This document shows positions 287 through 27,836 of a stretch of 43,745 nt of DNA, in pieces. The notes under the pieces were generated by a model that saw only the letters and a program-made list of their open reading frames with translations, did not search any database and had not been told where the DNA came from. Position numbers and translations under genes: made by a program. Positions within the stretch are counted from its first letter, which is position 1, and the number at the start of each line of letters is the position of its first letter. This DNA is from Nitrosomonas sp. (GTDB lineage: Bacteria > Pseudomonadota > Gammaproteobacteria > Burkholderiales > Nitrosomonadaceae). The DNA lies in contig NZ_JAMWZS010000026.1 of assembly GCF_024282095.1 (NCBI RefSeq), positions 1 through 43,745 of the forward strand, read 5' to 3'.

Positions 287-341
287 GGGCGCGCCCAATA
301 ATCAACCGCAACACCTAAGAGAGATTAAGGTGTTGGGATGG
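287..341. repeat. 55-base repeat, copy 1 (probable IS3-family right end)
   Basis: This stretch is nearly identical to 27782-27836. Each copy contains an interrupted palindrome (CAACACCT at 309-316 against AGGTGTTG at 328-335) and starts with a GGGCGCGC motif. Both copies adjoin IS3-family transposase fragments in the same orientation but at different points of the transposase genes, so the repeat is best read as the shared terminal region of one IS family, with the interior deleted differently in each copy. Its identity as an IS end is inference. Confidence 0.55.
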
Positions 342-355
342 AAAAAAGAGAAGAA

Positions 356-757: not shown

Positions 758-761
758 TCAG

Positions 762-850
762 AACATAATGCACGGAAGCCGATATTGTGTTACGCGCCGA
801 CGCGCGCACATTGTCTGATTATTATTCCAGGAATCACCGCGCAGTACGCG
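762..850 (-). other. Relic of FGE-type variable region with Asn codons (candidate DGR template repeat)
   Basis: On the minus strand this reads RVLRGDSW, then three AAT codons, then, after restoring one missing base, residues like P-D-N-V-R-A-S-A-R-N. A deletion of about 25 bases follows, then N-I-G-F-R-A-L-C. It aligns with the last codons of the FGE domains ending at 990, 5880 and 14446, but has AAT or AAC exactly where those three have assorted NNY codons. That is what the template repeat of a diversity-generating retroelement encodes. It lies just downstream of the target gene ending at 990, a usual place for a template. It is damaged and fused to an IS3 remnant. It could instead be the tail of an ordinary lost FGE gene. 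Confidence 0.45.
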
Positions 851-908
851 AGTCTCGTCTCAGGGAATCTCACAGAACCGCAATCTGCCAACTTGCTGTG
901 TGAGACGC

Positions 909-937
909 AAAAAAACAAAAGCGCCGCTGCGCGGCGC
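909..937 (-). terminator. GC hairpin plus T-run after the STAND/FGE gene
   Basis: On the minus strand a perfect 7-bp stem (GCGCCGC/GCGGCGC, 3-base loop, positions 921-937) is followed by TTTTGTTTTTTT, the form of a Rho-independent terminator. The same hairpin follows the paralogue ending at 14446 and its first half follows the one ending at 5880. It may therefore also be the post-VR hairpin that DGR targets carry. Confidence 0.65.
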
Positions 938-989
938 TATCAATGAACAGCAAACCAGCGCATCAACGCTCAGCGGCGCCGGTGATCCG
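938..989 (-). other. Conserved 3' block after variable region, copy A
   Basis: The roughly 52 bases between the stop codon and the hairpin are almost identical to those after the stops at 5880 and 14446, although the preceding coding sequence is divergent. In DGR target genes the segment after the variable region (IMH) is kept constant because it directs retrohoming. The block is seen directly; the IMH role is inferred. Confidence 0.5.
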
Positions 990-3176
990 CTATTCGATGG
1001 GAGACTCACATAACACCCGGAAGCCGATATCGCCGTAACGATTGACCGGATGAGCGCCGTGGCGGGCGGCCGAGCGTACGCCGTCTGGAAAATTAACCCA
1101 AGAACCACCGCGCACCACGCGGGCCTCGTAACTGCTTATATCATCGGGGCAGTGCTGTACCTTTGTATCAGATGAGCTATTGAAAATCGAGCAAGTCCAT
1201 TCCCAGACGTTGCCCGACATGTCGTGTAAGCCGAAGCGGTTGGCTGGGAAACTACCTGCCGGTGCAGTTTTTTCCCCATTCCATGCGCCGCCGCAATTTG
1301 TACAGTTGGCCAATCCCTTCCCTGCAATATCGTCGCTGCCGTCCGGCGCGGGCACGCCATATTCTTTTTTAGTACCACCGCGCGCAGCGTATCCCCACTC
1401 GGCTTCTGTGGGCAATCTGCATGATTGGCCTGTCATCGCGTTCAACCACTTGGCATAGGACCAGGCGTCAAACCAACTCACGTCGATGACTGGTTGGTCG
1501 CCACGGCCCCAGTCTCTATCATATGGGACATCGCGCCCGGTAGCCTGTTGGAATTTGTCGTACTGGGCAAAAGTGATCTCGGTGTTAGCAAGGTAGAAGG
1601 GCTGTGCGATCTTTATTGAATAGATCGGTTTATCGCTTCCGGACCCGCCAATCTCAAAGCTCCCAGCGGGTACTTTGACCAGTTTTGGCAGCGGTATCGC
1701 CTCGCCGAGTTTGAGCTTATACGCCCATCGCATGGTCAGGGCCTGCAGCGGATAGCTATGCTTGTTCGCCCAGTAAAGACCTTCAGCGAAGAAAGCGAGC
1801 AGCCCGATTGCAACGAACGCCAGCATGGCTAAAAAGAACGCTAGCCTGCGGCTTTTGCGCAGCCGCCTTTCCGCCTCCTGCGCAGCCTCCTGCGCCTGCT
1901 CGCGCGCTTCGCGTTCGCGCCGTTGATCGCGGCTGGCGCGCACCACATCGGTTAAGACATCATGAGTGAGCTCGAGACGCACGATGCCGCCGCGCTCCTC
2001 GCGGCGCACCAGTCGCTCGTCGATCAGCGTCTCGATCTGCGTATCGTCGACTCCGGCTTCGTGCGCGACTTCGAGCGCAACGCTGTCGCGCTGTCCGGAA
2101 GCCAGCAGTAGTTTGTCTTCGACGAAGCGGCGGGCGGTTGCGGAGACGCGGCCGATCGCTTTCTCGTAGAATTCGCCAAGGATGCCGGCGCGCACTTGCT
2201 CGGTCAGCATCGCGGCGCTGATCTGTGCGGCTCCGTCCTTGATGCGGCGCTTGTTCATCGCGCGGCAAAGCAGGCTGAGCAAAGCGGGATCGACCTCCTG
2301 CTCCGCCGCGGGGCGCAGTCGTTGCCTTGCGCCGACGACCGCGGTGACGATTTCCTCGGCCACAGCCTGTGTCACCAGGTCGCCGCCGGGCTTACGCACC
2401 ACGGTCATGGCCTGAGTGCCGCTCAACGGGCGCAGGCGCATGCGGTTTCCCATGCCGGGCATCAGGCGGCGCAGATCCTCGAGGTAGGCCAGATAGTCTT
2501 CGCGCAGCGACAGCAGCACGTGGCAGGCTTGGCGGTTGAAGTCGAAGCTGCGCGAGGCCTCAGCCGGTGAACGGTCGAGCCGCGCTTTGACCGCGCTCGG
2601 TGCGCGCCCCTCGGCGAGGTCGGCGATGGCTTCGAGAAAAGCCTTTGACTCATCCGCACGGCGGAATGCCCCGAGGGTGAAAATCTCTTCAAATTGATCG
2701 AAAACCAGCACCGGCGTCAGCAACCGGTTGCGCTGGCTCCAGAAAGCATTGCCCTGGCGCTGGAAGTATTCCCACAGCGTTTCGCCGTCTTGACGCGCCG
2801 GTATCTTCGCGCGCGCGGCCTGCGCCGCCGCTTCAATCGCAGCAAACACCTGATCGACCAGTGCCACCGCCTCCGGCGCGAAGTTGAAGCGCACGTAAAC
2901 CGGCAAACATTGATGCGTACGCAACATTGGGAACAAGCCCGCCTTAATCAGCGAGCTCTTACCCAGCCCCGATAGCCCATACAGCACGGTGAGCCGGTGT
3001 TGCAGCACCCGCTCCAGAAGCTCGTCGCGTTCGGACTCGCGTGCCGCGAAGTAGGCGGTATCTTCCTCGGCGTAGGACGCCAGGCCCGGCCAGGGCTCCT
3101 GCGCGCTCAGGGTCGAGGCTGAGGCGTGTGCCGGAACACTCGCGGATTCGGATTCCAGAGCGGGGATCTGATTCAT
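990..3176 (-). CDS. STAND NTPase with transmembrane segment and C-terminal FGE/lectin-like sensor
   Basis: A 728-residue protein. Residues 1-30 are a low-complexity lead. The STAND NTPase domain has a Walker A motif GLSGLGKSS at about 67-75 and a Walker B motif VLVFDQFEE at about 156-164. A charged coiled coil (about 414-443) leads into one transmembrane helix (about 444-469), and residues 497-728 form an FGE-sulfatase (SUMF1, C-type-lectin-like) domain with GNVWEW and RVVRGGSW motifs and the end GFRVLC. The paired catalytic cysteines of true formylglycine-generating enzymes are not in the usual place, so it is probably a binding domain. The ATG overlaps the stop of the SIR2/TIR gene upstream (ATGA), so the two are translationally coupled. 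The variable codons at 1029-1097 suggest a DGR target. Likely role (inference): ligand sensor and switch for the upstream TIR effector. Confidence 0.88.
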   Translation of the reverse strand: MNQIPALESESASVPAHASASTLSAQEPWPGLASYAEEDTAYFAARESERDELLERVLQHRLTVLYGLSGLGKSSLIKAGLFPMLRTHQCLPVYVRFNFAPEAVALVDQVFAAIEAAAQAARAKIPARQDGETLWEYFQRQGNAFWSQRNRLLTPVLVFDQFEEIFTLGAFRRADESKAFLEAIADLAEGRAPSAVKARLDRSPAEASRSFDFNRQACHVLLSLREDYLAYLEDLRRLMPGMGNRMRLRPLSGTQAMTVVRKPGGDLVTQAVAEEIVTAVVGARQRLRPAAEQEVDPALLSLLCRAMNKRRIKDGAAQISAAMLTEQVRAGILGEFYEKAIGRVSATARRFVEDKLLLASGQRDSVALEVAHEAGVDDTQIETLIDERLVRREERGGIVRLELTHDVLTDVVRASRDQRREREAREQAQEAAQEAERRLRKSRRLAFFLAMLAFVAIGLLAFFAEGLYWANKHSYPLQALTMRWAYKLKLGEAIPLPKLVKVPAGSFEIGGSGSDKPIYSIKIAQPFYLANTEITFAQYDKFQQATGRDVPYDRDWGRGDQPVIDVSWFDAWSYAKWLNAMTGQSCRLPTEAEWGYAARGGTKKEYGVPAPDGSDDIAGKGLANCTNCGGAWNGEKTAPAGSFPANRFGLHDMSGNVWEWTCSIFNSSSDTKVQHCPDDISSYEARVVRGGSWVNFPDGVRSAARHGAHPVNRYGDIGFRVLCESPIE
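1029..1097 (-). other. Candidate DGR variable region A
   Basis: These 23 codons lie between the conserved Ser-Trp and Ile-Gly-Phe of the FGE domain. At the 13 positions that vary among the three paralogues the codons are GTT AAT TTT, GGC, CAC GGC GCT CAT, GTC AAT and TAC GGC GAT, all ending in a pyrimidine. That is expected if adenines of AAC/AAT template codons were randomised at the first two positions. The intervening framework residues (P, R, A, R) are conserved. Confidence 0.6.
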
Positions 3177-4549
3177 GTCGCTGAATCGCGAGCGCGCAAC
3201 TGGGCTTGCTGGAACGCTGCCGTGATAAATTTGCGGAAGGCTGGCGTCACTTTTCCTCCAGGCAATCGCTTCCAGTCTGGTTTCTTAAGTTCGAGCGGCA
3301 GCGCCGGGTTGTTGGGCTGGATATCGTCGATGGCCACCGGGATCAGGAACTTGGCGTTGGCTGCAAAGCCGATGCTGCGCTTGAATGCCTCGTGCCACTC
3401 GTGGCGGAAGAAGCGATCCTGCTGTGTCAGCGTGTGACGCGATAGGATCAGCACAAACAGCGAACAGGCGTTGACGTTGCGGATGATTTTGCTCTCCCAG
3501 TCGTCACCGCCGATGAGTTGCTGACGGTCGAACCAGCAGTCGATGCCGTTGTGATCCAGCGCCTGCTGGATACGCTCGACGATCGCCCGGTCCTCGCTGG
3601 CGTAACTGAGGAATAGCCCGCCCTCCAGGATGTCACGTGCAAGCACGCGCGGGGCGGTTGTGAAGGTCAGATCGCGCGGCAGTTTTTCGGCGAAACGCGC
3701 AATAAATTCGACCGGGCCCAGCGAAAAGTGCTTGGTACTGCGACCGAAGTGATCGAGGAAGACAGCGAATTCGGAAGCGCTGGAGGCGCGTTCGATGAAC
3801 CAATCCGTCTTACCACCCGCGGCGCTCAGGCGGGTCGACACGCCCAGTCGAATGAAAAAGCGGGCGAGCCAATCAGCGAAGCCACACCCCACAATCAGCA
3901 GGTTCTTTTGCTGTAATAAACGAAATAGCTTCTCTGGCCTGCCCTCTTGAGACTGCAGCGCGTGCATGAACTCCAGCACGTCCTCTTCGGTGACCGCGTA
4001 CTCGGGCATCGATGTCGCCCGGCCGAACAGGTGGAACACCACCGGGGGGCCGTCGCTCAATTGGGTACTGTCGAGATCGTCCTTACGCACGGGCGAGTAC
4101 TCGATCTGACGGACTCTTCCAGCCCAGACCGGATGGCGCTGCTCAATGGCGCGCACAAGAAGATTGTCGAAAGTGGTGGTCACGAACAATTTGACCGGCA
4201 ATGCGGCCAGATCGTTGAGCGCCTTGGGGATGGGAACGCTTTGCTCCAGCTCTTCGACAACCCCCTTAACCACCGGATACAGCTCTTCGGCCCGGTTACG
4301 CCGATTGGCCAGATAACTGCAGGCCACTTCGTTGAGTGCGCGTTCACCGGTGTGCTGCGGCGCATCGACTTCCAGCCGCAGGGCAAGTTCCTCGGCCACG
4401 AGGGTGTAGAAGTTCTTCGACCCGCTTGCTGCGCTGGGAATCTCGAGCAGCTCGGATCCGGTAATCGGAATGAGCGCGCCTTCGCGAACAAACCGGGTCA
4501 GTTCCGACCAGAGGCGGTCTTCTTGGGCAATGCTGAGAACGGCGTTCAT
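3173..4549 (-). CDS. SIR2-like and TIR domain protein (NADase-type effector)
   Basis: About 458 residues from the ATG at 4549; a TTG at 4567 is an alternative start, and a GGAG lies between them. The N-terminal half resembles the SIR2_2 family, with FVTTTFDNLL, VFHLFG and LLIVGCGFADWL. The C-terminal half is a TIR domain beginning GLFLSYASEDRAIVE, with CWFDRQQL and GDDWESKI. The Glu in WESKI sits where the catalytic Glu of NAD-cleaving TIR domains lies. In the SIR2 part the usual TTN-Asn and LHG-His appear to be replaced (TTTFD, HLFG), so that half may be catalytically dead. The stop overlaps the next gene's start by 4 bases. Role as an NAD-depleting conflict effector controlled by the STAND partner is inferred from the family and the gene pairing. 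Confidence 0.82.
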   Translation of the reverse strand: MNAVLSIAQEDRLWSELTRFVREGALIPITGSELLEIPSAASGSKNFYTLVAEELALRLEVDAPQHTGERALNEVACSYLANRRNRAEELYPVVKGVVEELEQSVPIPKALNDLAALPVKLFVTTTFDNLLVRAIEQRHPVWAGRVRQIEYSPVRKDDLDSTQLSDGPPVVFHLFGRATSMPEYAVTEEDVLEFMHALQSQEGRPEKLFRLLQQKNLLIVGCGFADWLARFFIRLGVSTRLSAAGGKTDWFIERASSASEFAVFLDHFGRSTKHFSLGPVEFIARFAEKLPRDLTFTTAPRVLARDILEGGLFLSYASEDRAIVERIQQALDHNGIDCWFDRQQLIGGDDWESKIIRNVNACSLFVLILSRHTLTQQDRFFRHEWHEAFKRSIGFAANAKFLIPVAIDDIQPNNPALPLELKKPDWKRLPGGKVTPAFRKFITAAFQQAQLRARDSAT

Positions 4550-4724
4550 GGTTTTGCGTATCTCCAATACTGGCGTCGTAACATCGTGGTTGACGGGTCT
4601 CCGGTACGATGATTCGGGAAGGGTCGGCAGGCTGTCAGCCTGTCAAACCGACCCACTTGAAACAATACTGCTTGATCAATTTAAAAAAACCAATCATTGT
4701 TTTCTAATTGGGTTTTGATAACAC

Positions 4725-5642
4725 CTATTCGTTTTCAAAAACGAAAATCTTATTACCATTCCCCGCCTTAGCCTTTGCTCCGTTGAAATGTTCTAAATTC
4801 ACAGGATTACCGTTCAAAATTGCCTCATAGAACTTTTCCAGATAAGGATTGCCATCTTGCCCGCCTTTCAGAAAATAACGATGATTGACGTCAATTTTAC
4901 TAAAATCGACATAGTTAGCATTGTTTGCCAATAAAATATCTTTACCAAACATTGTTTCCAATTTCTGACCCAATCTTTTTTCTCTTTGTCGCTTGGCCGA
5001 TAGACCTAAAATGTTGTCATTCTTGTTAACCGTGATATAAATATTATCCGAAAAGTCAATCTTCTTAACCCACTGATCATGGTCTTTGGCATCAGCATCG
5101 GCTGAATTTAAAATTACAGTATCAAACAGATTCTTCTCAAGACTTTGCAGTTGATAAGATTCCAGCATTCTTGAAAAGACGATATTTCCCATGCTGTGGA
5201 CTAACAAGGTTGATTTTATTTTTGAAAATTTCTCAGGATGGTCTTTCTTAAATTTTTGAAATGAAGCCAATACATTCAGTAAATCCGGAGCAGCGGCCTT
5301 TGCTTCTTCATTCGGGTATCCTGCAGGCCCCTTGTAGGAAGGAAACCAGTGAAACATGATGACCTTGGCACTATATTCTTCTTCCAAATTCGGAATGACT
5401 TCATCCAGCGATTTTTTGGGTTCCTTCCCCCGGCCATGAACATAAAAAATAATGTTATCAGCGCCACGACCGCCAGCTTTCATATCCTTCTCAATCGCTT
5501 CTGCCATTTCTTTCACTTCATTGGAAAGGTTTTGGATATGGTACTGAGTACCATCACTGGTAAATAAGGATGCTCCAGCAAATGCATGAATGTTAAAAAA
5601 ACAGAAACCAAAGACCCAAAAGACATTTATTAGCGTTTTCAT
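4725..5642 (-). CDS. Secreted alpha/beta hydrolase-like protein
   Basis: About 305 residues from the ATG at 5642, which has a good AGGGAG site 7-8 bases upstream; a TTG six bases earlier is a weaker choice. It opens with a hydrophobic signal peptide ending near FAGA. The hydrolase features are a strand followed by FYVHGRGKEP (oxyanion-type His-Gly) and TLLVHSMGN, a nucleophile elbow in which the Ser would be catalytic. A His near NHRYFLKG could complete the triad. It resembles DUF900-type alpha/beta hydrolases, so esterase or lipase activity is plausible but the substrate is unknown. It stands alone between the DUF4062/STAND gene and the SIR2/TIR gene. Its AT-rich composition differs from the GC-richer SIR2/TIR-STAND pair, suggesting separate acquisition. 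Confidence 0.75.
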   Translation of the reverse strand: MKTLINVFWVFGFCFFNIHAFAGASLFTSDGTQYHIQNLSNEVKEMAEAIEKDMKAGGRGADNIIFYVHGRGKEPKKSLDEVIPNLEEEYSAKVIMFHWFPSYKGPAGYPNEEAKAAAPDLLNVLASFQKFKKDHPEKFSKIKSTLLVHSMGNIVFSRMLESYQLQSLEKNLFDTVILNSADADAKDHDQWVKKIDFSDNIYITVNKNDNILGLSAKRQREKRLGQKLETMFGKDILLANNANYVDFSKIDVNHRYFLKGGQDGNPYLEKFYEAILNGNPVNLEHFNGAKAKAGNGNKIFVFENE

Positions 5643-5818
5643 AAACAACTCCCTTCGGTTGAATAGGGTTACAAATTATGCATGATATTTGCACTGCCTA
5701 GATGACATAAATCAACCCGCAAACAACTGGCATGATATGCTTATTTCTTAATTCTCTTACCTTTTTAGAAGGCACTGAGTTCACGTTTCTCAGTTGAACC
5801 GTTCACTCAGAAACTTTC

Positions 5819-5879
5819 TGCGCGGCGCTATCAGTGAACAGCAAACCAGCGCATCAGCGTTCAGCGCGCCGGTGATCCG
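5819..5879 (-). other. Conserved 3' block after variable region, copy B (hairpin incomplete)
   Basis: It matches the blocks after the genes ending at 990 and 14446 up to GCGCCGCGCAG, then diverges, so only the first arm of the GC hairpin is present. This copy therefore lacks the stem-loop, either through a rearrangement at this point or through loss of its second arm. Confidence 0.5.
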
Positions 5880-8609
5880 CTATTCGATGGGGGACGAACA
5901 TAACACCCGGAATCCGTAAGCGTAGAATCTATAGTCCGGAGGGGCGTAGTAGCGCGCCGCTACTCTCTCGTAGTCAGGATCATAGTACCAGGAACCACCG
6001 CGCAACACGCGGTCCTCGCTCGTACTCAATGAAGTATCGCTCGGCTGATCGTATAAATTCAGGCACCACTCCCAGACATTGCCCGCCATATCGTCTACCC
6101 CGAACGGGCTGCGACCCAACGGATACAAGCCTACCGCAACTGTACGTCCAATGCCTGCCCCAATGCTGTTTGTGCGCTGCCCGTTCCACTCACCTGGCCA
6201 TGGGTAATCTTGCTGCGTACTTCCGGCGGCAGCCCATTGCCATTCCCATTCAGCGGGCAATCGGATCGGCAACTGCAGCCTTACGCTCAGCCAGCGGCAG
6301 TAGGCCAGCGCATCGTACCAAGAGACGTGGATTACCGGGTAATTGGCAAAAGACCAGAGCAGCGGACCGGATTTCTCCTCTCTCGGACTACCCTCCCACC
6401 AGGCTGAATTGCAGTAACCATCCTTAGCATTCACAAAAGCGCGGTATTGCGCCCAGGTGACCGGGTAGCGGGCCAGGCGAAAGGGGGGCACTGTAAAGCG
6501 TTCCCGGGATTCAGTTTCCAAGGTGACTTCACCTGCCGGAATGTTTATCCACGCAATATCGGGCAGACCATTGGCATTAAGTCCAACACCGCGCCGTGGA
6601 TCACCCAACTGATTGAGCCGCAGGCCGATTTCTTCCCGGCGGTGATGCGGTATATTGTCAGTGTTCAGCTCGTCAATCAGCGCGAGCGGTTCTGGGTACA
6701 GAAAGTGACGCAGGGGCTCAGGCAATTGGGGTTCGAGTGTCCGCCAAGTCGCGATGCTCGAATCAGAAAAATCCGCATCGGGAACAGGCGATGCAAGGTG
6801 GTTCAGCTTGCGCAATGCTTCAATAGCGGGTGATTGCCGTTCCCAGCCCCACTTCAAGACAGACCGCTGCTGATCTCCGCTCCTATACCAATCCCGTGCT
6901 GCCTGCTCGGCTTGACGACGCAGCGCCAGATCCGCTGCATAGCGCGCGTACCAGTCCTTGAAACGTTTCCAATGACTGAACACCGCCTCATGTCCTACTT
7001 CATAAACAGCCGGTTGTTCATCACTGCCTTCCCTGCTGACTAAGATGCGCTTATCGACAAGTTGCTGAGCCAAGATCAAAGTAGCTTCAGGCAGATCACC
7101 CTTGACTGCACGGCGGCGCACCACAGCCAACGCATCACCCGCTTCATTATCGCGCTGCTCCACGCTGGCGATGGCTAGAAACAAATGTGAAATGGCCTCC
7201 TCATCCAATACTTTCGCATCTTGCGAAAGTGTTTTCTCAGCCTGTGCAACTGCTTGTTCAGCCAAACCGTTGATAGCGCCGGCAACACCACCCATGGCAG
7301 TGTAAGCTGTTTCGGTAAGCGCATCGCCATCCTTCTTGTCATATAACAGAGACAAAGCAAACTCAGCCAGCGCCAATGCGCCCGGACCGGACCCGGTGTC
7401 ATCCAGAATGCGTTGCACCAAATGTTGTGAGATCGTCAGTCCCGCCGCTTGGGCTGGACCGGTGATCATTTTTTCCAACGCTGCTGGGCCCGGGACGGTC
7501 ACCGGAAAATGTCCCGAGCGCAGTAACACGATGCAGGAATCATCTTGCGGCCATTGGTTGTAAAAATCAGAGCGCATGGCGATCACCACGCGCACTAACG
7601 GACACTCTACCGCAGCAATAAGCAACTTAAAAAAGTTGCTCCGTGCACCATCCTCCACTTTACTGGCAAATACTTCTTCAAATTGATCGACGAAAAGGAG
7701 AATCTGGACGGTTGTGCCAGCTTGCCCCAGCGCATCACTCGCCACAGTGGCAATATCGGCTGGATGCGTTCGTAGCCGCTGCGTCAAATCCGGCACACGC
7801 CAGTTTTGGTCTGGAAATGATTTGCTCAAGGCAGCCGCCAGGGGTTGAAACGGATCATCGCCCAATTCGCGCGGGGAAAAGCTGACTGGAATCCAGCGAA
7901 CACCGCCTACGATAGGACTTTCCGTCAGGGTTGGAATCAGCCCTGCGTATACCAATGAGGATTTACCTGAGCCCGAAGGTCCGATCACAGCAAGAAAGCG
8001 TTCGCTGCGCGCAACGAAACGTTCAACCAATGCTTCGATTTCCGCATCACGACCGAAGAATCGATCTGACTCAGCGGTCAAAAAGGCGCGTAAGCCAGGG
8101 TATGGACGCCCTTCGATGCGTTTGGGTGGAATAATATTGCCCTGCCGTTGGGAATAATGCCAGAGAGCTTTCAGGACGTGTTCCTTGAGATCTTCTGAGG
8201 TTTTGAAGATTGCGGGACGCCCAGTCTTTTCAGTACCCTTATTGACGTGCTGCCGGAACGATTCGATCCGATCTGGTGAGTTCTCCTGAGTGACCGCGTC
8301 GTGAAATTGGCTCAAGATCGCGACATCGTCCTTGACGAAGATCAGTGTCGGTAGCTGATGTTCACGTGCCTGCTGGTATTCAAGCTCGGTAATAGAAAAG
8401 GGCTGACCTGGAGGGATGAATCCGTAACGGCGACCGATAATTCCGATATATAGATCGCATCCCGCCACGTCTGCCAGACAGCTCTCGCGGACACCGCGCT
8501 CGTCAGCCGTATAACTTTCAACAACCGTACAATCACCACCCAGTGCTTTACGGACTGCTTCCCGCTCAGGCCCCAGATCGTTCAATGTCGAGGAAAGATA
8601 GACTCTCAT
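5880..8609 (-). CDS. DUF4062 / STAND NTPase / FGE-like sensor protein (paralogue 1)
   Basis: 909 residues from the ATG at 8609, chosen because the paralogue at 14446-17142 starts at the equivalent MKVYLSSTL; the frame stays open to 8765. Residues 1-95 are a DUF4062 domain ([32 protein letters not shown]). A STAND NTPase follows, with [16 protein letters not shown], Walker [10 protein letters not shown] (210-218), Walker [12 protein letters not shown] and the VVIAMRSDF sensor. A helical segment around [12 protein letters not shown] leads to an FGE-sulfatase-like domain (from about 665; [27 protein letters not shown]). No cysteines occupy the FGE catalytic positions, so ligand binding is more likely than catalysis. 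No transmembrane segment is evident. The variable codons lie at 5916-5987. Confidence 0.87.
5916..5987 (-). other. Candidate DGR variable region B
   Basis: These 24 codons between the conserved Trp and Gly-Phe are rich in Tyr, Asp, Phe and Ala. The 13 aligned variable codons are TAC TAT GAT, TAC, TAC TAC GCC CCT, GAC TAT and TTC TAC GCT, all of NNY form. Outside this segment the protein is strongly similar to the paralogue at 14446-17142; inside it only the framework residues match. Confidence 0.6.
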
Positions 8610-8925
8610 GGTCAAACAGAAAGGAGAGGGGTAATCGGGTCCTGGCCGAAAATCGCCCAAAAGTTTATCAAAATAGATGGTTGTGAAAAAATCATTTAGA
8701 TTTAGATGTTGACGCTTGAGAAAATTATAGAAATAAACGTACTGTTGGTGGAATAACAGACTCAAATTTGATTTCTATGCAAAAAATATACGCTATACGT
8801 GTTTCGATGTCGATGATACGCAGCCCCATAGCTCAACATTGAACAAAGCGCGCACCAAGGTACCTCGCCTGTTATGTGACGCTGTTACCACAAAACCATA
8901 TATTCAGATCCTCTTAGGCAAGTAA
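8610..8925. other. Intergenic region upstream of the DUF4062/STAND gene
   Basis: The reading frame of the downstream gene stays open here to 8765 but the residues are not shared with its paralogue, so this is probably leader and promoter DNA. No clear sigma-70 boxes, operator or RNA gene was recognised. Confidence 0.35.
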
Positions 8926-10182
8926 CTAATCAGGTTTCTTTTTAAATAGCTGATCCAGTTTTGTATTGATTTCATCAATGGCAGTCATTGCACTTTGGGC
9001 CTTTGATTCCGCGACTTTTGCTGCATTCACTGCAGTCTTCGCTGCAGTAAGAATTGTGCTATCTGTTGCGCTACCTGGAGCTGCAGCAGTCGCGGATTGA
9101 GTGTTAGATACAGGCGGTGTTGATTGTGCCGCTGCACTTGTGGCAGGTTTTCCCGTTCCCTGGGTGGTTTGCCGAAGGTCGCGCTCCTCATCGTCTTTGT
9201 GCGCCAGTAGAGACCGCAATTGCAGCAACTTACCCAGGGCGCCGTACCAGAATGGCGCGCCTAGACTGAGAAGCAGGATTGAGAGGAGAACCCCGGCTGG
9301 ATTTATATTTTTCCAGCTATCTGACCACTCACCTATTTTGGGTACCGTCAGAATGCCCTCATTTGCCAAGGATTTATAAAGATCATTTACTACGGATACC
9401 GGTACAGTTGCAGCAGGTTGATCCGATGGATTTTCCGTGGGCTTATTATTATCCTTACGCTGTACCTCAATGGCTGCGTGCACAATTGCCGATCGCGTAG
9501 ATTCATCCATGGCTAAGCGGTTGACCAGCGTAATCGTATCAAGCTGCAACGCCACAGCAACCAAGGTGGCACTTAAAAAAGTCAAAATACGGGCATTGAA
9601 GGTGAATCGCTCACTGACACGATCGATGATCGAATCAAAGCGGCTATTAATTTTAGCCAGGAATTGGCTGGAGGCATGTCGCATTAACGCTATGTTGTGG
9701 CGAACATTGCTTGCCATTTCAGGGCTGGATTTCTCCAATTGGAGCGCAAATAGTCGCACATTATCCAGGGTTTGCTCAGGATTGGTGATTCCGTTGGCTG
9801 CCATGGTGTTTTTAAGGGCTTTCAATGCTTGCTGCTGGATCTTGGTCATTGCTTGATCCGGTGTTTCTGCTTTGGAAGCCAGTTCCAGAAGTATCTTGGT
9901 CAATTCTTCGCGGTGAATCACGTCACCGTATCGAACAATGCCAAATGAAGCGCCACCGTTGACAGCTTGGTGCGTCAGGATCATTTTTACAATTTCCTGC
10001 GCATGTCTTTTTGAAAATCCAGGATCAAGCTGTTCAATCATGCCAGCAAGTCCCGCCAGCAGATTCCGCCCCCGGCTTCCGGTTGCAGCAATGATTGCTT
10101 GCGTAATCATCGTCACAGCCATACTGGCAACCAGCATAATAACGGATAGCCCAATAAGAATATCGACTGATTTAAACATCAT
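8926..10182 (-). CDS. Unknown membrane protein with Ala-rich C-terminal tail
   Basis: 418 residues; the ATG at 10182 follows an AAGGAGA site at good spacing. A hydrophobic helix spans roughly residues 8-33. A soluble helical part follows (about 40-195). A second hydrophobic stretch lies at about 200-222 (ILTFLSATLVAVALQL) and a third at about 297-325 (GVLLSILLLSLGAPFWYGALGKLL). The last 90 residues are Ala/Thr/Pro rich and end in a coiled-coil-like segment and a Lys-rich terminus. I do not recognise the family. It is the most upstream gene of the minus-strand island that includes the STAND proteins, separated from the next gene by about 316 bases, so co-transcription is uncertain. Confidence 0.75.
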   Translation of the reverse strand: MMFKSVDILIGLSVIMLVASMAVTMITQAIIAATGSRGRNLLAGLAGMIEQLDPGFSKRHAQEIVKMILTHQAVNGGASFGIVRYGDVIHREELTKILLELASKAETPDQAMTKIQQQALKALKNTMAANGITNPEQTLDNVRLFALQLEKSSPEMASNVRHNIALMRHASSQFLAKINSRFDSIIDRVSERFTFNARILTFLSATLVAVALQLDTITLVNRLAMDESTRSAIVHAAIEVQRKDNNKPTENPSDQPAATVPVSVVNDLYKSLANEGILTVPKIGEWSDSWKNINPAGVLLSILLLSLGAPFWYGALGKLLQLRSLLAHKDDEERDLRQTTQGTGKPATSAAAQSTPPVSNTQSATAAAPGSATDSTILTAAKTAVNAAKVAESKAQSAMTAIDEINTKLDQLFKKKPD

Positions 10183-10685
10183 TATCTCTCCTTACCGAAA
10201 GTTGACGCCCTCGACTGTTTGGCTTCGGTACATCGCCAGACTTTTCCCGTTGCCTTCCTCTTTTTCTTCAAGAATATCATAGTCAAAAGAAAATTAGCCG
10301 ATCAGTGACCAATCATGCATTTTTCCCGTGAAATACCAGAAACTCGAGCACGTCTTGATATAGTAAGCAATTCTTCTCCAAATCGGAACTCGCAAAGCTT
10401 GCGAACCACTTCGAATACCTGAAATTCATTGATTATGTTACGGAAAAACACTTTGGTGCGATTTAAGCCGTATCGCGCAGTGGCAAAGATATGACAAACT
10501 GAAGAGCAATTACGAAAGTATGGTTACTATGGCTTGTGGATATCTGGGTTGCCTTTGTGAAATTTCAGAAGACCCTAGCGCTATTTTAGTGAGTTGTTGC
10601 GCTGATGGGGAAAGTTGTGTCGGAGTCTTTACAGTGGCTTGCCGGTATCTTGCGCAGGGCTGGTAAAGGCAGATAATTATAGTAA
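10183..10685. other. Stretch with short plausible frames but no intact gene
   Basis: The plus strand contains two short frames that look protein-like but have no proper start. One ends at about 10466 with a tail like KLANHFEYLKFIDYVTEKHF. Another around 10473-10664 contains RIAQWQRYDKLKSNYESM followed by a Cys-rich end. They are probably decayed gene pieces. The 5' leader of the membrane-protein gene also lies here. Confidence 0.3.
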
Positions 10686-10874
10686 GCTGACCCGTGTCAT
10701 GCCGCAGCCGCCGGAAATAAAACTTCCCGAAGCGCTAATTCCGGAACGACTGTGCCGGAATATATTCAGCAAGAGATTGCTGCCGGGCGCCGTGAACAAG
10801 TCGCGCAAGAATTTCTCGGTCACCCGGCATGTGAATCAGTGGAACAGGATCCAACGGTATACGGTTTTACGTGA
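10686..10874 (+). pseudogene. Possible decayed gene tail
   Basis: An open frame of 62 codons without an ATG ends in a protein-like helix (VPEYIQQEIAAGRREQVAQE) and then FLGHPACESVEQDP. The residue pattern looks more protein-like than the overlapping frame that begins at 10615. It is not a recognised family and has no ribosome binding site. It ends 14 bases before the stop of mtkB on the other strand. Confidence 0.25.
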
Positions 10875-10887
10875 TTTTATGGCTTGA

Positions 10888-11775
10888 TTACATCTTAGCC
10901 AAAACTTCCGCAACGGTTTGTCCCATCAGCGATGGCGTCGGACAAATCGTAACACCCAGTTCTTTCAATATCGCTACCTTTTCTGCTGCGCTTTCTCCGG
11001 CGGATGAAATGATCGCACCCGCATGTCCCATGCGCCGTCCTTCCGGTGCGGTCAGGCCGGCAATATAGGCAACCAGCGGTTTGGTCATGTGTTCTTTGGC
11101 GAATTTACCGGCTTCCACTTCCTGCGGGCCGCCAATCTCACCAATCATCAGTGCCACTTTGGTTTCAGGATCCTGCTCCAATCTTTCCAGAATATCCCGG
11201 TGTGAGCTGCCGGGAATCGGGTCACCGCCGATGCCGACAGAAGTCGAAATACCGATGCCTAATAGCCGCATTTGATCAGCGGCTTCATAACCCAGCGTGC
11301 CGGAGCGACCGACTACGCCGACATTGCCGCGGATATAGATGTGTCCGGGCATGATCCCCAGCATCGCGCGGCCTGGACTGATGGTACCAGCACAGTTGGG
11401 GCCGGTCAGCAGCATGCGTTCTTCCTTGTGGAAGCGACGCAGGAAATTCTTCACTGTCATCATGTCTTGCGTCGGTATACCATCGGTGATGGAGACGCAA
11501 TATTTGATGCCGGCATCAGCAGCTTCCATGATGGAATCCGCAGCAAATGCAGGTGGTACGAAAACAATGCTGGCTTCCGCGCCAACCTGCTTAACCGCTT
11601 CTTTGACGGTATTGAATACCGGCAATCCCAAGTGCGTTTGTCCACCTTTGCCTGGCGTTACGCCGCCGACCACATTGGAGCCGTAGTCGATCATTTCCTG
11701 CGCATGAAAGGTGCCAATTCTTCCGGTAAACCCTTGAACAATAATTCGTGTTTTTTCGTTGATTAATATCGCCAC
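10888..11775 (-). CDS. mtkB: Malate-CoA ligase, alpha subunit (succinyl-CoA ligase family)
   Basis: 295 residues with a GTG start at 11775, preceded by AGGAG at 6 bases. It has the succinyl-CoA synthetase alpha fold: an N-terminal CoA-binding Rossmann part (VQGFTGRIGTFHAQEMI, VGGVTPGKGG), then GPNCAGTI. GSSHRDIL contains the His that is phosphorylated during catalysis, and GEIGGPQE follows. With the beta subunit it would form malyl-CoA (or succinyl-CoA) at the cost of ATP. The malate-CoA ligase call rests on the beta subunit's closeness to MtkA and on the malyl-CoA lyase gene in the same cluster. It lies 9 bases after mtkA, so the two form one operon. Confidence 0.85.
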   Translation of the reverse strand: MAILINEKTRIIVQGFTGRIGTFHAQEMIDYGSNVVGGVTPGKGGQTHLGLPVFNTVKEAVKQVGAEASIVFVPPAFAADSIMEAADAGIKYCVSITDGIPTQDMMTVKNFLRRFHKEERMLLTGPNCAGTISPGRAMLGIMPGHIYIRGNVGVVGRSGTLGYEAADQMRLLGIGISTSVGIGGDPIPGSSHRDILERLEQDPETKVALMIGEIGGPQEVEAGKFAKEHMTKPLVAYIAGLTAPEGRRMGHAGAIISSAGESAAEKVAILKELGVTICPTPSLMGQTVAEVLAKM

Positions 11776-11784
11776 TTTGTACTC

Positions 11785-12966
11785 CTAGGCTTTTTGTACG
11801 ACGACTTCGTTACGTGCGCGAACCACTTTCTCCGCGGCATCCGCTAGCGTATCGGCTGTGATAATCGGTAGACCGCTGTTCGCGATAATGCGCCGGCCTT
11901 CTTCTACGTTGGTACCCGACAAACGCACTACCAATGGCAGTTTCATATCGATGTTCCTGACGGCTTGTACAACGCCTTCCGCAATCCAGTCGCAGCGGTT
12001 GATACCGGCGAAGATATTGACCAGCATCGCTTTCACATTGGCATCGGCCAACACCAGGCGAAAAGCCTTTTCGGTACGTTCGGCTGAAGCGCCGCCGCCG
12101 ACATCAAGAAAGTTGGCAGGCTCGCCACCGGCCAGTTTAATCATGTCCATCGTCGCCATCGCCAGGCCGGCGCCATTAATCATGCAGCCGATATCGCCAT
12201 CCAGTCCGACATAACTTAAGCCCGCTTCTGCGGCGGCGACTTCACGGCTATCCACCTGTGTATTGTCGCGCAGTTCCGCGACTTTATGGCGGCGGAACAG
12301 CGCATTCTCGTCAAATACCATTTTGGCGTCGAGCGCCATGATTTCGTTGTTGGTGGTCAGAACCAGCGGATTGATTTCCAGGATGTTGGCATCCAGATCG
12401 CGCAATGCACGGTAACAACCTTTAATGGTTTTAACCGCATGATTCAGTTGTGCGGGGTCGATATTCAACGCAAACGCCATTTTTCTCGCCTGAAAATCCT
12501 GCAATCCCACCGCCGGTTCGATATAAATCTTGATAATGGCTTCCGGATTGGTCACAGCCAGCTTCTCGATTTCCATGCCGCCCTGCGCGGAACCGATCAT
12601 GATGACTCGCTCGCTGCTGCGATCGAGCATGAATGACAGATACATTTCCTTGGCGATACTGGTGCCGGCCTCAATGTATAACCTGGAACAGATTTTTCCG
12701 GCAGGTCCGGTTTGATGCGTCACCAGTTTTTTGCCGAGCAGCTCTTCAGCCGCCTTTTCCACTTCAGCATGCGTTCTGCATACTTTGATGCCACCCGCTT
12801 TACCGCGTGCACCGGAATGGATTTGCGCTTTCACCACCCATACATCGCCATCAATCTCCCTGGCACGTTGCACGGCTTCCACCACGCTGTAGGCCAAGCC
12901 GCCATCAGCAATTTTTACGCCGTATCCCGCCAGGATTTCTTTTGCTTGATATTCGTGAATATTCAA
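11785..12966 (-). CDS. mtkA: Malate-CoA ligase, beta subunit
   Basis: 393 residues. The only sensible start is a TTG at 12966, with GAGGAA about 7 bases upstream; [10 protein letters not shown] is the standard N-terminus of the family. It has an ATP-grasp domain ([33 protein letters not shown]) and a C-terminal CoA-ligase domain ([49 protein letters not shown]). The residues NRCDWIAEG and the overall sequence resemble methylotroph MtkA more than SucC. It is the first gene of the mtkA-mtkB pair, downstream of mcl. Role: ATP-dependent activation of malate to malyl-CoA for cleavage to glyoxylate and acetyl-CoA. Confidence 0.88.
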
Positions 12967-13040
12967 TTCAATTTCCTCAACAATTGCATTAAATTCAATT
13001 CGATAGTTTTATAATTTCAACTTAAACAACGATAAAGATA

Positions 13041-13061
13041 AAGGCCGCTTAGCGCGGCCTT
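13041..13061. terminator. Hairpin between mcl and mtkA
   Basis: A perfect 8-bp stem (AAGGCCGC/GCGGCCTT) with a 5-base loop lies 10 bases after the mcl stop. On the minus strand it is followed by a T-rich but interrupted run (TATCTTTATC). It may partly terminate mcl transcripts ahead of mtkA, adjusting lyase to ligase levels, or stabilise the mcl 3' end. Confidence 0.55.
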
Positions 13062-13070
13062 ATCTGTTGA

Positions 13071-14018
13071 CTAGTTTTTTGCTGCAATAGCTTCAGCTAC
13101 TTTTACCACATTATTAGCCATTCTTTCAGAAGCCGCATCGATTAAACGGCCATCCAGCGCAGCGGCACCTTTACCTTGCGCCGCAGCGTCTTTGAGTGCC
13201 GCCAGAATACGTTTTGCTTTCTCAATTTCACGCGCAGGCGGTGTGAATACATCATTGGCCAGTTCTATTTGCGTTGGGTGAATCGCCCATTTTCCTTCAC
13301 ATCCCAACGCGGCGGCGCGTTTAGCCGCCAGTACGTAACCGTCGGGATCCTTGATATCGCCAAAAGGACCGTCGATCGGACGCAACCCGTACGCACGACA
13401 AGCCACGATCATGCGGCTGATGGCAAAATGCCATTGATCGCCGGGATAATCCGGGTTCAGGCCGCCGATATTGGTGGTTCTGGCGCGATTGCTGGCGGCA
13501 TAATCGGCAACACCGAAATGCAAGGCTTCCAGCCGTCCTGATGCGCCATTGCGCGCGATATCCTCCACATTGGCCATGCCCAGCGCGGTTTCGATCAGCG
13601 CTTCCAGACCGATGCGGTTTTTCAGACCTTGCTGCATTTCGAGCTGGGTCACCATCGCTTGCACCATGTAAATATCCGCATACACGCCCGCTTTCGGAAT
13701 CAGCAGTGTATCGATCTTGTGTCCGGCCTGTTCTACCAGATCAACCACATCGCGCACCATATATTGGGTATCGAGACCGTTGATGCGCACCGAAACCGTG
13801 ATGCCGTGGCCTTTCCAGTCCAGATCGTTGAGTGCTTGGATGACATTTTTACGTGCCTGAATTTTGTCATCAGGCGCGACTGCGTCTTCCAGATCGAGAA
13901 AAACAAAATCTACGCCGCTATTCAATGCTTTCTCAAACATTCCCGGATTAGAACCTGGAACTGCCAATTCGCAACGTTGTACCCGCTGAATAGTGGTTTC
14001 ATATAGCGTGTGACTCAT
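13071..14018 (-). CDS. mcl: Malyl-CoA lyase (HpcH/HpaI aldolase family)
   Basis: 315 residues; the ATG is preceded by GGAGGAAAC. Characteristic stretches are ELAVPGSNPGMFEKA, DFVFLDLEDAVAPDDK, SVRINGLDT, LIPKAG, LEALIETALGMANVE, HFGVADYAAS and ACRAYGLRPIDGPFGD, plus GKWAIHPTQI. Glu and Asp of the LEDAV and IETALG segments bind the metal. The sequence matches the L-malyl-CoA/beta-methylmalyl-CoA lyase type seen with mtkAB in serine-cycle organisms. Product use (acetyl-CoA plus glyoxylate) links it to C2/glyoxylate metabolism. In an autotroph this might serve glyoxylate handling (inference). Confidence 0.87.
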   Translation of the reverse strand: MSHTLYETTIQRVQRCELAVPGSNPGMFEKALNSGVDFVFLDLEDAVAPDDKIQARKNVIQALNDLDWKGHGITVSVRINGLDTQYMVRDVVDLVEQAGHKIDTLLIPKAGVYADIYMVQAMVTQLEMQQGLKNRIGLEALIETALGMANVEDIARNGASGRLEALHFGVADYAASNRARTTNIGGLNPDYPGDQWHFAISRMIVACRAYGLRPIDGPFGDIKDPDGYVLAAKRAAALGCEGKWAIHPTQIELANDVFTPPAREIEKAKRILAALKDAAAQGKGAAALDGRLIDAASERMANNVVKVAEAIAAKN

Positions 14019-14384
14019 GTTTCCTCCAGAATTAATAAATTTTTTAAGTGATCAATAGGGCTAATAGACGAACATGCCGGATGAGTGGTTTGTTTTTTTA
14101 ATATCATTTCACCTGATCTGCACTCAGTAGCAGGCATGGAATTAAGGCATTCTGTGTATCGTGGACTAGCAACGCAGGTAATCTTGATGAGGTGAATGGT
14201 TAGAATGAATGGTTTTCTGCTGGTTGTTTTAAAGACTAATTATTCAGCGGATTATATCCATTCTGCGGGAATTTATCTACTGACAAGCATTACCACTGTG
14301 GCGAACAAATAAACTGTCTGAGTTTGCAGCAAACGATCTGTCTGGGTTTTTTGGAATCCGTGCAGGATTCCAAAAAAATCGCAA
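14019..14384. other. Intergenic region between the DUF4062/STAND paralogue and mcl
   Basis: It holds the leader of mcl. It also holds a perfect 13-bp inverted repeat (TTTTTTGGAATCC at 14347-14359 against GGATTCCAAAAAA at 14365-14377). The A and T tracts lie on the wrong sides for a classical terminator. No gene or clear promoter boxes were recognised. Confidence 0.45.
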
Positions 14385-14445
14385 GCGCCGCTGCGCGGCG
14401 CTATCAATGCACAGCAAATCAGCGCTTCAGCGTTCAGCGCGCCGG
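14385..14445 (-). other. Conserved 3' block with GC hairpin, copy C
   Basis: It is nearly identical to the block after the gene ending at 990, including the GCGCCGC/GCGGCGC hairpin at 14385-14401, which is followed after five bases by seven Ts on the minus strand. It can act as a terminator. Sharing with two other FGE-ended genes suggests the constant 3' segment of DGR targets. Confidence 0.55.
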
Positions 14446-17142
14446 TTATCTGCTATTCGATGGGGACTCACATAACACCCGGAAGCCGATACTGCCGCTG
14501 CGATAGTTCGGAAGGTACCCGCGGTAGCGTGTCAACGAGTGCGCGAAGTGCGGACTTTCGCCCCAGCAACCACCGCGCAACACGCGGGCCCTGCCATCTA
14601 TATTTATAGCAATATCTTGAAGTAGCTCATAATGATTCAAACACCATTCCCAAGAGTTGCCAGCCATATCGTCAACACCGAAATGGCTGCGGCCCAATGG
14701 GTACATGCCTACCGCAACGGTACGCCCAATCCCGGCTTCTTGTTGATTGGCCCGTGCGGGATTCCATTCACCCCCCGGCCACGGATAATCCTGCTGCGTG
14801 GCAGCAACGGCTGCCCATTGCCATTCCCATTCGGCGGGTAATCGAATATCCAGCTTGGATTTTGCGCTGAGCCAGCGGCAAAATACTACCGCATCGTACC
14901 AGGAAACGTTGACCACCGGATAATCAGCAAAAGACCACAGCAATGGACCAGGTTTTTTTTCCTTTTGCAAATCCCGCCACCATGCCTCGTTGCGATAACC
15001 ATCCTCGGCATCGGCAAAAGCGCGATATTGAATCCAGGTGATTGGGTAGCAGGCGATACGAAAACGGGGCATCTGGAAATGATCTCCTGTTTCCAGCGTG
15101 ACTTCCCCGGCCGGTATATCAATCCAAGCGATGTCCGGTAAACCGTGTTGATCCAAACCGACGCCGTGGCGTGGGTCGCCAAATTGGTTGAGGCGCAAGC
15201 CGTTTTCTTCGCGCCGCTGGTGCGGCGTCTCATCGGTGTTGAGTTCTTCTAGCAGCGCCAGCGGTTCCGGGTGCAGAAATTGGCGCAGCGGTTCTTCCAA
15301 TTGCATTTCGAGCTGTTGCCACAGCGTAATCATCGGATCGCTGAAATCGGGGCCGCATGCCGGTACAGCCATTTGATTCAGTTTGGCCAGCGCTGCAATG
15401 ACCGGTCTTTGCCGCTCCCATCCCCATTTCAGCACCGACTGGCGTTGCTGCCGCGACCAGTCGCGCGCCGCCTGCTCGGCCTGGCGGCGCAATGCAAGAT
15501 CGTTGGCATAACGGGCATACCATTCCTGAAAACGTTTCCAATGGCTGAATACCGCTTCGTGCCCGACCTCGTAGATCACCGGCGAATCGCTGCTATCTTG
15601 CCTGCTGACCAGAATGCGCTGATCGACTAAATATTTGGCCAACAGCAATGCGGGCTCAGACAGTTCGTGCTGTGCGGCACGGCGGCGCACGACCGTCAGC
15701 GCTTCGTTCTTATCGCTGCTTTGCTGTTCCACGCTGGCGATGTTCAGAAATAAGCCTGAAAAAACCTTGTCGTCCAATGGGATGATTTCTTGTGCACGGG
15801 CCACCGCCTTTTCAGCCAAGCCTTCGATGGCACCAGCAACACCGCCGATGGCGGTGTAGGCGTCTTCGGTGAGTTCGTTGCCGCGCCTTTGCTGATACAA
15901 CTGCGCCAGCGTGAATTCCGCCAACGCCAATGCGCCGGGTGCGGTGCCGGTGTCATCCAAAATGCGTTGCACCAAGTGCCGTGCAATCGTGAGACCGGCT
16001 GCTTTGGCAGGCTCGACGATCATTTTCTCCAATGCTGCTTGGCCCGGAATACCCAGCGGAAAATGCCCGTTGCGTAGCAGTGTAATACTGTCTTCATCTT
16101 GCGGCCATTGGTTGTAGAAATCGGAACGCATGGCAATGACTACGCGCACTAATGGACTCCTTACGGCGGCTTGGAGCAATGCAAAAAATGCGCTACGCGT
16201 AGCCGCATCGACTTTTGCTGCAAACAATTCCTCGAACTGATCGGCAAACAACAGTAATTGCGCATTCGCACCCTGCGTTCTCAGCGCGTTTTCGGCCAGG
16301 ACAGCCATGTCAGCCGGGCGGTTGCGTAACTTCCCTGCAAGCTCCTGAACATGCCAACCTTGTGTTGGAAACGCCCTATCCAATGCATCCGCCAGCTGAC
16401 AGAATGGATCGTCACTCGTCCGGCGCGGGCTAAAGCTGACCGGAAACCAGCGCACACCGCCGCTAACGGCGGTGGTGGTGAGAACAGGAATCAAACCTGC
16501 ATAAACCAACGACGACTTGCCTGAACCGGAAGACCCAATCACGGCAAGAAAGCGCTCGCTGCGGACCAACAGGCGCTCAATCAGCGCTTCGATCTCGGCA
16601 TCACGCCCGAAGAATCGATCCGCTTCGCTCGTCAGAAAAGCACGCAATCCCGGATAGGGATCGCCCACGATGCGCTTCGGCGAGGGCTGAGTCTGTCGCT
16701 GGGAGTAGTGTAGATACGCTTTCAGAACATGCGCCTTTAAATCTTCCGGTGTTTTGAAAACGGCTGCACGGCTGGCAATGCGCTGTCTGAAAGCAACGAT
16801 CAATTCCGGCGGATTTTCATTGGTGACCGCATCGTAAAATGTGCCTTTGATTTCATGATCGTCCTTGATGAAAATCAAAGTCGGTAATGCACACTCTTCT
16901 GCACGACGGAATTCTTGCTCAGTGATGGATAGAGAATCTCCTTGGGGAATATGGCCATAGCGCCGTCCGATGATGCCAATATACAAATCACACTCAGCCA
17001 CATCACTCAAGCAACTCTCTCGCACACTGCGTTCGTCGGCGGTGTAACTTTCAACCACGATGCATTCGCCACCCAATGCGTCTTTGACAGCTTGCCGTTC
17101 TGGTAAAAGGTCACTCAAGGTTGACGAAAGATAGACTTTCAT
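14446..17142 (-). CDS. DUF4062 / STAND NTPase / FGE-like sensor protein (paralogue 2)
   Basis: 898 residues starting at MKVYLSSTL. Domains are DUF4062 (1-95; [13 protein letters not shown]), STAND NTPase (PYPGLRAF, Walker A GSSGSGKSS at about 203-211, Walker [21 protein letters not shown]), a helical linker ([12 protein letters not shown]) and an FGE/C-lectin domain (from about 655; GNSWEWC, RVLRGGCW, GFRVLCES). It is highly similar to the protein ending at 5880 except in the variable codons at 14491-14562. Near the end one C is missing compared with its two relatives, so the usual SPIE-stop becomes SPSNSR-stop. It begins 38 bases after an ADP-ribosylglycohydrolase-like gene. The proposed role in ligand sensing is inferred from domain order. 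Confidence 0.87.
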   Translation of the reverse strand: MKVYLSSTLSDLLPERQAVKDALGGECIVVESYTADERSVRESCLSDVAECDLYIGIIGRRYGHIPQGDSLSITEQEFRRAEECALPTLIFIKDDHEIKGTFYDAVTNENPPELIVAFRQRIASRAAVFKTPEDLKAHVLKAYLHYSQRQTQPSPKRIVGDPYPGLRAFLTSEADRFFGRDAEIEALIERLLVRSERFLAVIGSSGSGKSSLVYAGLIPVLTTTAVSGGVRWFPVSFSPRRTSDDPFCQLADALDRAFPTQGWHVQELAGKLRNRPADMAVLAENALRTQGANAQLLLFADQFEELFAAKVDAATRSAFFALLQAAVRSPLVRVVIAMRSDFYNQWPQDEDSITLLRNGHFPLGIPGQAALEKMIVEPAKAAGLTIARHLVQRILDDTGTAPGALALAEFTLAQLYQQRRGNELTEDAYTAIGGVAGAIEGLAEKAVARAQEIIPLDDKVFSGLFLNIASVEQQSSDKNEALTVVRRRAAQHELSEPALLLAKYLVDQRILVSRQDSSDSPVIYEVGHEAVFSHWKRFQEWYARYANDLALRRQAEQAARDWSRQQRQSVLKWGWERQRPVIAALAKLNQMAVPACGPDFSDPMITLWQQLEMQLEEPLRQFLHPEPLALLEELNTDETPHQRREENGLRLNQFGDPRHGVGLDQHGLPDIAWIDIPAGEVTLETGDHFQMPRFRIACYPITWIQYRAFADAEDGYRNEAWWRDLQKEKKPGPLLWSFADYPVVNVSWYDAVVFCRWLSAKSKLDIRLPAEWEWQWAAVAATQQDYPWPGGEWNPARANQQEAGIGRTVAVGMYPLGRSHFGVDDMAGNSWEWCLNHYELLQDIAINIDGRARVLRGGCWGESPHFAHSLTRYRGYLPNYRSGSIGFRVLCESPSNSR
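14491..14562 (-). other. Candidate DGR variable region C
   Basis: These 24 codons between the conserved Trp and Ile-Gly-Phe include one codon more than region A. Of the 13 aligned variable codons, 11 are NNY; GAA and GGG are the exceptions. The framework Pro and Arg residues are kept. Confidence 0.5.
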
Positions 17143-27781: not shown

Positions 27782-27836
27782 GGGCGCGCTCAATCATCAA
27801 CCGCAACACCTAAGGGAGGTTAAGGTGTTGGGATGG
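27782..27836. repeat. 55-base repeat, copy 2 (probable IS3-family right end)
   Basis: Nearly identical to 287-341. The TG at 27781-27782 fits the outer end of an IS3-type inverted repeat. It adjoins the OrfA fragment on its right. Confidence 0.55.

Follow-up and report, generated by a model that had tools for sequence, protein, structure and literature searches.

The closest described counterparts of the genes reported here are targets of diversity-generating retroelements (DGRs) in Thiohalocapsa PB-PSB1 and its relatives, where proteins that combine nSTAND1 with a C-terminal FGE domain are varied (Dore et al. 2024, PMC10907252). The Nitrosomonas genes described below have several things in common with those systems as set out in the available part of that paper: the same architecture, TIR effectors in some cases, targets rewritten in trans, and degenerate loci in which mobile elements replace the reverse transcriptase (RT) or the template. 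DGR-varied STAND-FGE sensors, TIR effectors, transposon-damaged loci and trans targets are already published there, and Nitrosomonas is named as having multiple related DGRs. In Thiohalocapsa, populations were observed to diversify and complete copies occur alongside, whereas our locus retains a fossil template only; its effectors, DUF4062 or SIR2+TIR, also differ from those covered in that part of the paper.

Other known families overlap with ours in part. In the FGS-domain conflict systems, a DGR-varied FGE-type domain likewise belongs to multi-domain conflict proteins; as far as the available part describes them, they are vWA-MoxR ternary systems, unlike ours, and the terms DUF4062 and Nitrosomonas are absent from the main text (Kaur et al. 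2020, PMC7159879). The Swarozyc / DUF4062 NADases, for which the accessible part of a preprint reports anti-phage defence (PMC13174449), share the DUF4062 effector with two of our genes; the terms FGE, sulfatase and diversity-generating are absent from it. Avs and other antiviral STAND proteins, as outlined in part in PMC10907252, have the same order of N-terminal effector, central STAND and C-terminal sensor. Our genes differ from Avs in their FGE sensor domain and in PADLOC, where no Avs model matched them; genes 1 and 3 gave nothing there, and gene 2 gave only a 20-residue mad3 match (E 2.4e-4). No STAND-FGE model match was obtained with PADLOC for genes 1 and 3, and only a negligible one for gene 2. 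Literature searches on orphan or remnant DGR targets, on DGRs in Nitrosomonas or ammonia oxidisers, and on SIR2/NADase yielded nothing closer than PMC10907252 in the portions of sources available. What is added here is an identified fossil template, RT-less targets that outnumber live systems in one genus, and the link of DGR-varied sensors to DUF4062 and SIR2+TIR effectors.

Three Probable Sensor Genes and Their Neighbors

The window, by which we mean the whole 43,745-nucleotide stretch analyzed, is contig C75 of a 2.8-Mb Nitrosomonas genome in 81 contigs (completeness 99.97%). The protein ends that the first-pass annotation had placed at 990, 5880 and 14446 were confirmed as the ends of ORFs. 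The genes and their neighbors, identified by ORF and Pfam analysis, are as follows.

990 to 3176, minus strand: gene 1, an nSTAND1 + FGE sensor of 728 aa
3173 to 4567, minus strand: SIR2_2 + TIR_2 gene, overlapping the start of gene 1
5880 to 8765, minus strand: gene 2, DUF4062 + nSTAND1 + FGE
14446 to 17142, minus strand: gene 3, DUF4062 + nSTAND1 + FGE, 898 aa
17181 to 18206, minus strand: ADP-ribosylglycohydrolase gene, 38 bp upstream of gene 3

All three proteins match the FGE-sulfatase and nSTAND1 families (nSTAND1 E 3e-29, 5e-89 and 7e-92 for genes 1, 2 and 3), and the predicted link to DUF4062 or TIR partners was borne out by DUF4062 matches in genes 2 and 3 (E 8e-17 and 7e-20) and by the SIR2_2 + TIR_2 gene beside gene 1. 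The latter also adjoins the gene 1 orthologue in G076, where it is 90.9% identical, and it is the probable effector partner of gene 1. Gene 2 probably starts at the ATG at 8609, which gives the 911-codon form seen in its orthologue L066. Searching with the gene 3 protein returned 10 loci, the seven closest of them from Nitrosomonas. The ADP-ribosylglycohydrolase gene adjoins all three gene 3 orthologues found (L054/L063, L062, L065) and was not found in the examined loci of gene 2 type; its position beside gene 3 would fit a putative NAD+/ADP-ribose theme. One of those orthologues (L065:10001-12683) has a premature stop, with 683 codons to the first stop. A 418-aa ORF upstream of gene 2 (8926-10182) had no Pfam match at E ≤ 1e-3.

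Variable Repeats and Codon Signature

Each gene ends in a variable repeat (VR), located by alignment to a template of what we call lineage B, and is followed by a stretch found by sequence comparison to be common to lineage-B targets.

931 to 1004, minus strand: end of gene 1 and downstream stretch common to other lineage-B targets
1005 to 1121, minus strand: template-homologous VR of gene 1, 117 bp
5818 to 5894, minus strand: common downstream stretch after gene 2, its hairpin interrupted
5895 to 6011, minus strand: VR of gene 2
14374 to 14466, minus strand: common downstream stretch after gene 3
14467 to 14586, minus strand: VR of gene 3, with one extra codon

The common stretch may be only a terminator; a special fold was rejected, its folding energies lying within the range of shuffles.

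The first-pass annotation had counted 13 variable positions with NNY codons at all 13 in two of the genes. The excess of NNY held up (9, 9 and 8 of the 10 codon columns in which all three residues differ). The number of positions depends on the alignment, and we did not recover "13 of 13" exactly. We give counts for an independent codon set, the 11 AAC/AAT codons of the lineage-B template of a relative, G063, with the extra codon of gene 3 removed for both NNY and third-base counts. NNY stands at 11/11, 11/11 and 10/11 of these codons in the three genes, or 32/33, compared with a background rate of 0.52-0.56 for these genes (binomial p 4e-8). The third base is that of the G063 template in 30/33 (p 7e-7 against 0.5). 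With other templates, the third-base match was 27/30 (G033), 31/39 (G088) and 21/30 (G010, p only 0.02). Across 33 distinct B-type VRs of 117 bp from the stretches examined, window genes 1 and 2 included, NNY occupied 353/363 of the template AAC/AAT codons.

The Genome's Own DGR

The first-pass annotation had called for a search for a DGR RT elsewhere in the genome. There is one, though of a lineage that does not match the window VRs and that we call lineage A. The Pfam RVT_1 search hit a single place (C68:161950-162597), at a locus with an FGE target, a bAvd gene, the RT and a template coding SWNNNPQNLRSANRNRNNTDEANNN; a second FGE-like target there was read from the sequence. A 24-base lineage-A flank pattern found three repeats on C68 and one on C80, which ends a 416-aa ORF. 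Compared with its three VRs, the template was changed at 24/31, 22/32 and 17/32 adenines and at 2/85 other bases each time. Lineage A thus looks live. The first of its VRs (L001:658-773) has a 1-bp deletion, and the end of its target is frameshifted as a result.

That this RT diversified the window VRs in trans is highly improbable. Its reach to the remote VR on C80 (17/32 A, 2/85 other bases) speaks for such an origin, but the lineage-A template differs from the VRs of genes 1, 2 and 3 at 34, 39 and 37 of 85 non-A bases, which rules it out as their source, and the B template that would be needed instead is broken (see below). All RT and Avd matches in the genome belong to lineage A, and searches for lineage B turned up no RT, not even as a fragment, and no Avd.

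Intact Lineage-B Systems in Relatives

The fitting template came from relatives of the window genome. In G063, a different species, a template coding SWNNNPDNVRASARNNNHPDNRNNN lies after a TIR-nSTAND1-FGE target, with bAvd and RT present. The lineage-B RT of such relatives is about 37% identical to the lineage-A RT, and their bAvd gene lies on the opposite strand. The G063 template differs from its own VR at 15/26 A's and at 0/91 other bases. A-biased change was also seen between template and own VR in G033 (15/25 A against 4/92 other bases, and 13/25 against 3/92), G088 (16/30 against 4/87), G010 (17/30 against 5/87) and, for an altered template, G086 (19/31 against 10/86).

The window VRs show this bias relative to the G063 template as well: 16/26 A against 17/91 other bases for gene 1 (p 5e-5), 16/26 against 15/91 for gene 2 (p 2e-5) and 17/26 against 20/91 for gene 3 (p 6e-5). 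The 15-20 non-A differences per 91 are part species divergence and part drift. Template match and A-bias together support the earlier proposal that these ends of the FGE domain were made by adenine-directed DGR mutagenesis.

The lineage-B RT was less than 60% identical to all of 70 phage and 23 plasmid records, and a phage or plasmid origin was rejected on that basis. In an order-wide sample, 12/399 genomes matched it at E ≤ 1e-40, two of them being Nitrosomonas with lineage A; the best match in that sample was 52% identical and contained one stop.

A Fossil Template Beside Gene 1

The template repeat with A at the variable bases, the other item the first-pass annotation had asked for, exists intact in these relatives and, in the window itself, in decayed form near the left end.

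1 to 77, no strand assigned: repeat end at the contig end, present at nine places elsewhere in the genome (96-100% identity)
369 to 747, minus strand: truncated repeated element, found elsewhere in the genome as two 91% copies and a partial one
760 to 850, minus strand: decayed lineage-B template repeat (alignment to the G063 template)
854 to 891, minus strand: template-side leader, 86.8% identical to that of G033 (sequence match, E 1.2e-6)

Translated, the fossil gives RVLRGDSWNNN and, after pieces of B template whose frames are shifted, NIGFRALCS. It lies 154 bp downstream of the gene 1 VR; the corresponding cis gap in G063 is 167 bp. None of its 15 aligned A's is changed relative to the G063 template, against 13/76 other bases and 26 bp of gaps, and the G033 template gives the same 0/15 with 17/76. 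Five VRs retained template A's at a mean rate of 0.44; at that rate, a VR would retain all 15 with p of about 5e-6. From fossil to VR, the changes were 12/20 A against 14/71 other bases for gene 1 (p 9e-4), 13/20 against 17/71 for gene 3 (p 9e-4) and 10/20 against 15/71 for gene 2, where the A-bias is weak (p 0.014). Since the 26 bp of gaps are not a multiple of three, copying the fossil would break the target's frame.

We read the truncated element as IS3-type; a weak rve match (26.5 bits, below Pfam's cut-off) was obtained for a frame at 302-601. RT remnants were sought in window positions 1-1000 and none was found (best E 1.4). A genome search for the VR-end pattern returned the three VRs and places on C3 and C77 with two mismatches, against one match for a backwards control pattern. 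The C3 and C77 places were discarded as further templates because a scan of these loci gave no full repeat. A peptide search of the genome found only the three VRs, the lineage-A template and the C80 VR. A 56-bp repeat, 93% identical between copies, occurs at 287-342 and 27782-27837, the second copy directly upstream of Calx-beta ORFs (28171-33311).

The first-pass annotation described the sensors as diversifying. For the present this is unsupported: the template that fits these genes is broken, neither an RT nor an Avd of its lineage turned up, and the template of lineage A does not fit. On this sequence evidence, the three genes are DGR-made sensors whose tips are most likely no longer diversifying in this genome. 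For activity to continue, strain variants or the DNA beyond the contig end would have to carry a lineage-B RT and template that are both intact. The contig breaks off within a repeat, 760 bp beyond the fossil, which leaves room for an RT in an assembly gap. In Thiohalocapsa, according to the part of PMC10907252 available, intact variants exist alongside loci whose reference copy is broken. We nevertheless judge continued activity improbable in a genome so nearly complete that yielded neither a B-type RT, whole or fragmentary, nor a B-type Avd, where even the cis template is broken, and where the window VRs show non-A drift, unlike the 2/85 of lineage A.

We consider it probable that the three genes are lineage-B DGR targets that lost their machinery, have fixed tips and act as NLR-type NADase alarms. 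The left end of the window would once have carried a lineage-B DGR, whose error-prone RT copied the template RNA and randomized adenines. The mutated copy would have replaced the FGE-domain end of gene 1 in cis and those of genes 2 and 3 in trans, as their repeats and the intact systems of relatives suggest. A deletion and the truncated mobile element would then have cut the template and taken the place of spacer, Avd and RT. What remained of the template could write only a frame-broken end, which would have left the tips fixed. We infer complete loss of the machinery, as we do ligand sensing, NADase activity and defense.

Hypervariation among Orthologues

The VRs are far more divergent than the rest of the genes. 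In genes 2 and 3, 17-19 of 23-24 VR codons differ from those of orthologues, against 12-19% before the VR. Amino acid differences in and before the VR were:

gene 3 and L062: 18/24 and 106/859
gene 3 and L054: 17/24 and 133/859
gene 2 and L066: 18/24 and 117/874
gene 2 and L064: 17/23 and 166/881
gene 2 and L132: 19/24 and 82/508
gene 1 and L127: 15/24 and 147/487
L066 and L064: 16/23 and 158/872
L062 and L054, a milder case: 10/24 and 114/859
gene 2 and gene 3, paralogues: 18/24 and 275/858

Two further pairs with the truncated orthologue L065 were left out. In all nine pairs, third codon positions had the fewest changes within the VR and the most before it. The part before the FGE domain gave dN/dS values of 0.16-0.23 for genes 2 and 3 (five pairs) and of 0.38 for gene 1 and L127, where the boundary cuts into a swapped part. 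Within the VR, dN was 0.56-0.98 in six window-orthologue pairs and exceeded dS in only four, the exceptions being gene 2 with L064 and gene 1 with L127.

Ordinary positive selection, recombination or module swapping could be thought to produce such ends without a DGR. Module exchange does occur: amino acid identity of gene 1 to its G076 orthologue, measured in windows, is 0.83-0.98 up to residue 450 and 0.43-0.58 beyond, which indicates that the FGE module was exchanged from about that residue. Processes of this kind leave unexplained the NNY excess across the B-type VRs, the A-restricted change and a fossil template with its leader, and we regard them as an extremely improbable sole cause.

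Domains and Probable Function

The predicted fold of the gene 1 FGE domain matches PvdO, FGE and TvpA. Treponema TvpA (2y3c) is, like gene 1, a DGR variable protein with an FGE-type fold (E 3e-12 by sequence, 1e-9 by predicted fold), and PvdO and FGE enzymes outmatch it in both searches; to our knowledge, TvpA is not a STAND protein. The VR blocks of the predicted FGE model had pLDDT values of 44 and 42.

The DUF4062 model best matched a plant TIR domain (E 5e-5), followed by GIMAP GTPases, and two Glu residues were invariant in 6/6 aligned sequences. The available part of PMC13174449 reports that DUF4062 is a family of TIR-like NADases involved in anti-phage defense. The three sensors are linked to likely NADase-type effectors. 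Binding of a ligand by the FGE tip would let the STAND NTPase oligomerize and switch on the NAD+-consuming part. In genes 2 and 3 this part would be the DUF4062 domain fused to the sensor; in the case of gene 1 it would be the product of the overlapping SIR2+TIR gene. If so, such sensors would offer a simple biochemical read-out for finding ligands.

The immune role is our inference from these domains. The DGR origin and the freezing could both hold for proteins with another task, such as kin recognition or surface binding. Kin recognition is among the roles discussed for DGR-varied STAND proteins in the available part of PMC10907252, and gene 1 has, by eye, a hydrophobic stretch between STAND and FGE. 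With NADase-type effector domains beside or within all three proteins, we think a non-immune role unlikely, if worth keeping in mind.

Lineage B across Nitrosomonas

In a search with the lineage-B RT, 34/85 Nitrosomonas genomes matched some RT at E ≤ 1e-3. An open B-type RT, meaning an open frame covering most of the query, was present in 4/85 (G063, G033, G088 and G011; 77-100% identical). Short RT fragments, some with stops, lay beside targets in G002, G008, G019, G020, G086 and G101. The template peptide was matched in 45/85 genomes, with lineages mixed. B-type VRs occurred in at least 27/85, a lower bound set by a strict DNA pattern in the stretches examined; G004 and G029 had peptide matches and failed that pattern. 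No open lineage-B RT was seen in 23 of the 27. Because many genomes are fragmented, absence is firm only in those with few contigs, namely G006, G020 and G085 (one contig each) and G095 (two).

Templates in other genomes were in various states. In G010, an intact B template lies close to the end of a contig, and the lineage-B RT had no match. The template of G034 is decayed, cut after a few codons, and that of G086 is also decayed. In G022, the template place holds a diversified-looking body followed by foreign sequence; the repeat there (L058:8354-8437, contig C87) keeps the template position and leader, and perhaps a VR overwrote the template before the locus decayed. Beyond the cut template of G034 (L052:1-640, contig C4) lies what looks by eye like a VapBC-type toxin-antitoxin pair.

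One genus thus presents successive stages of one DGR family: live, with a fossil template, and with no machinery found. The fate of hypermutated receptors after loss of the mutator becomes testable, including whether they are retained for a useful tip. It is conceivable, and we put it forward tentatively as a doubtful generalization, that DGRs in Nitrosomonas are passing tenants that randomize NADase-linked STAND sensors and are then shed; the chosen tips would be inherited as a fixed innate repertoire, and most such receptors would be post-DGR. Further DGR lineages with SWNNNGRN-type templates were seen in Nitrosomonas at L043/L076 (G022, contig C2), L030/L080 (G084) and L092 (G105).
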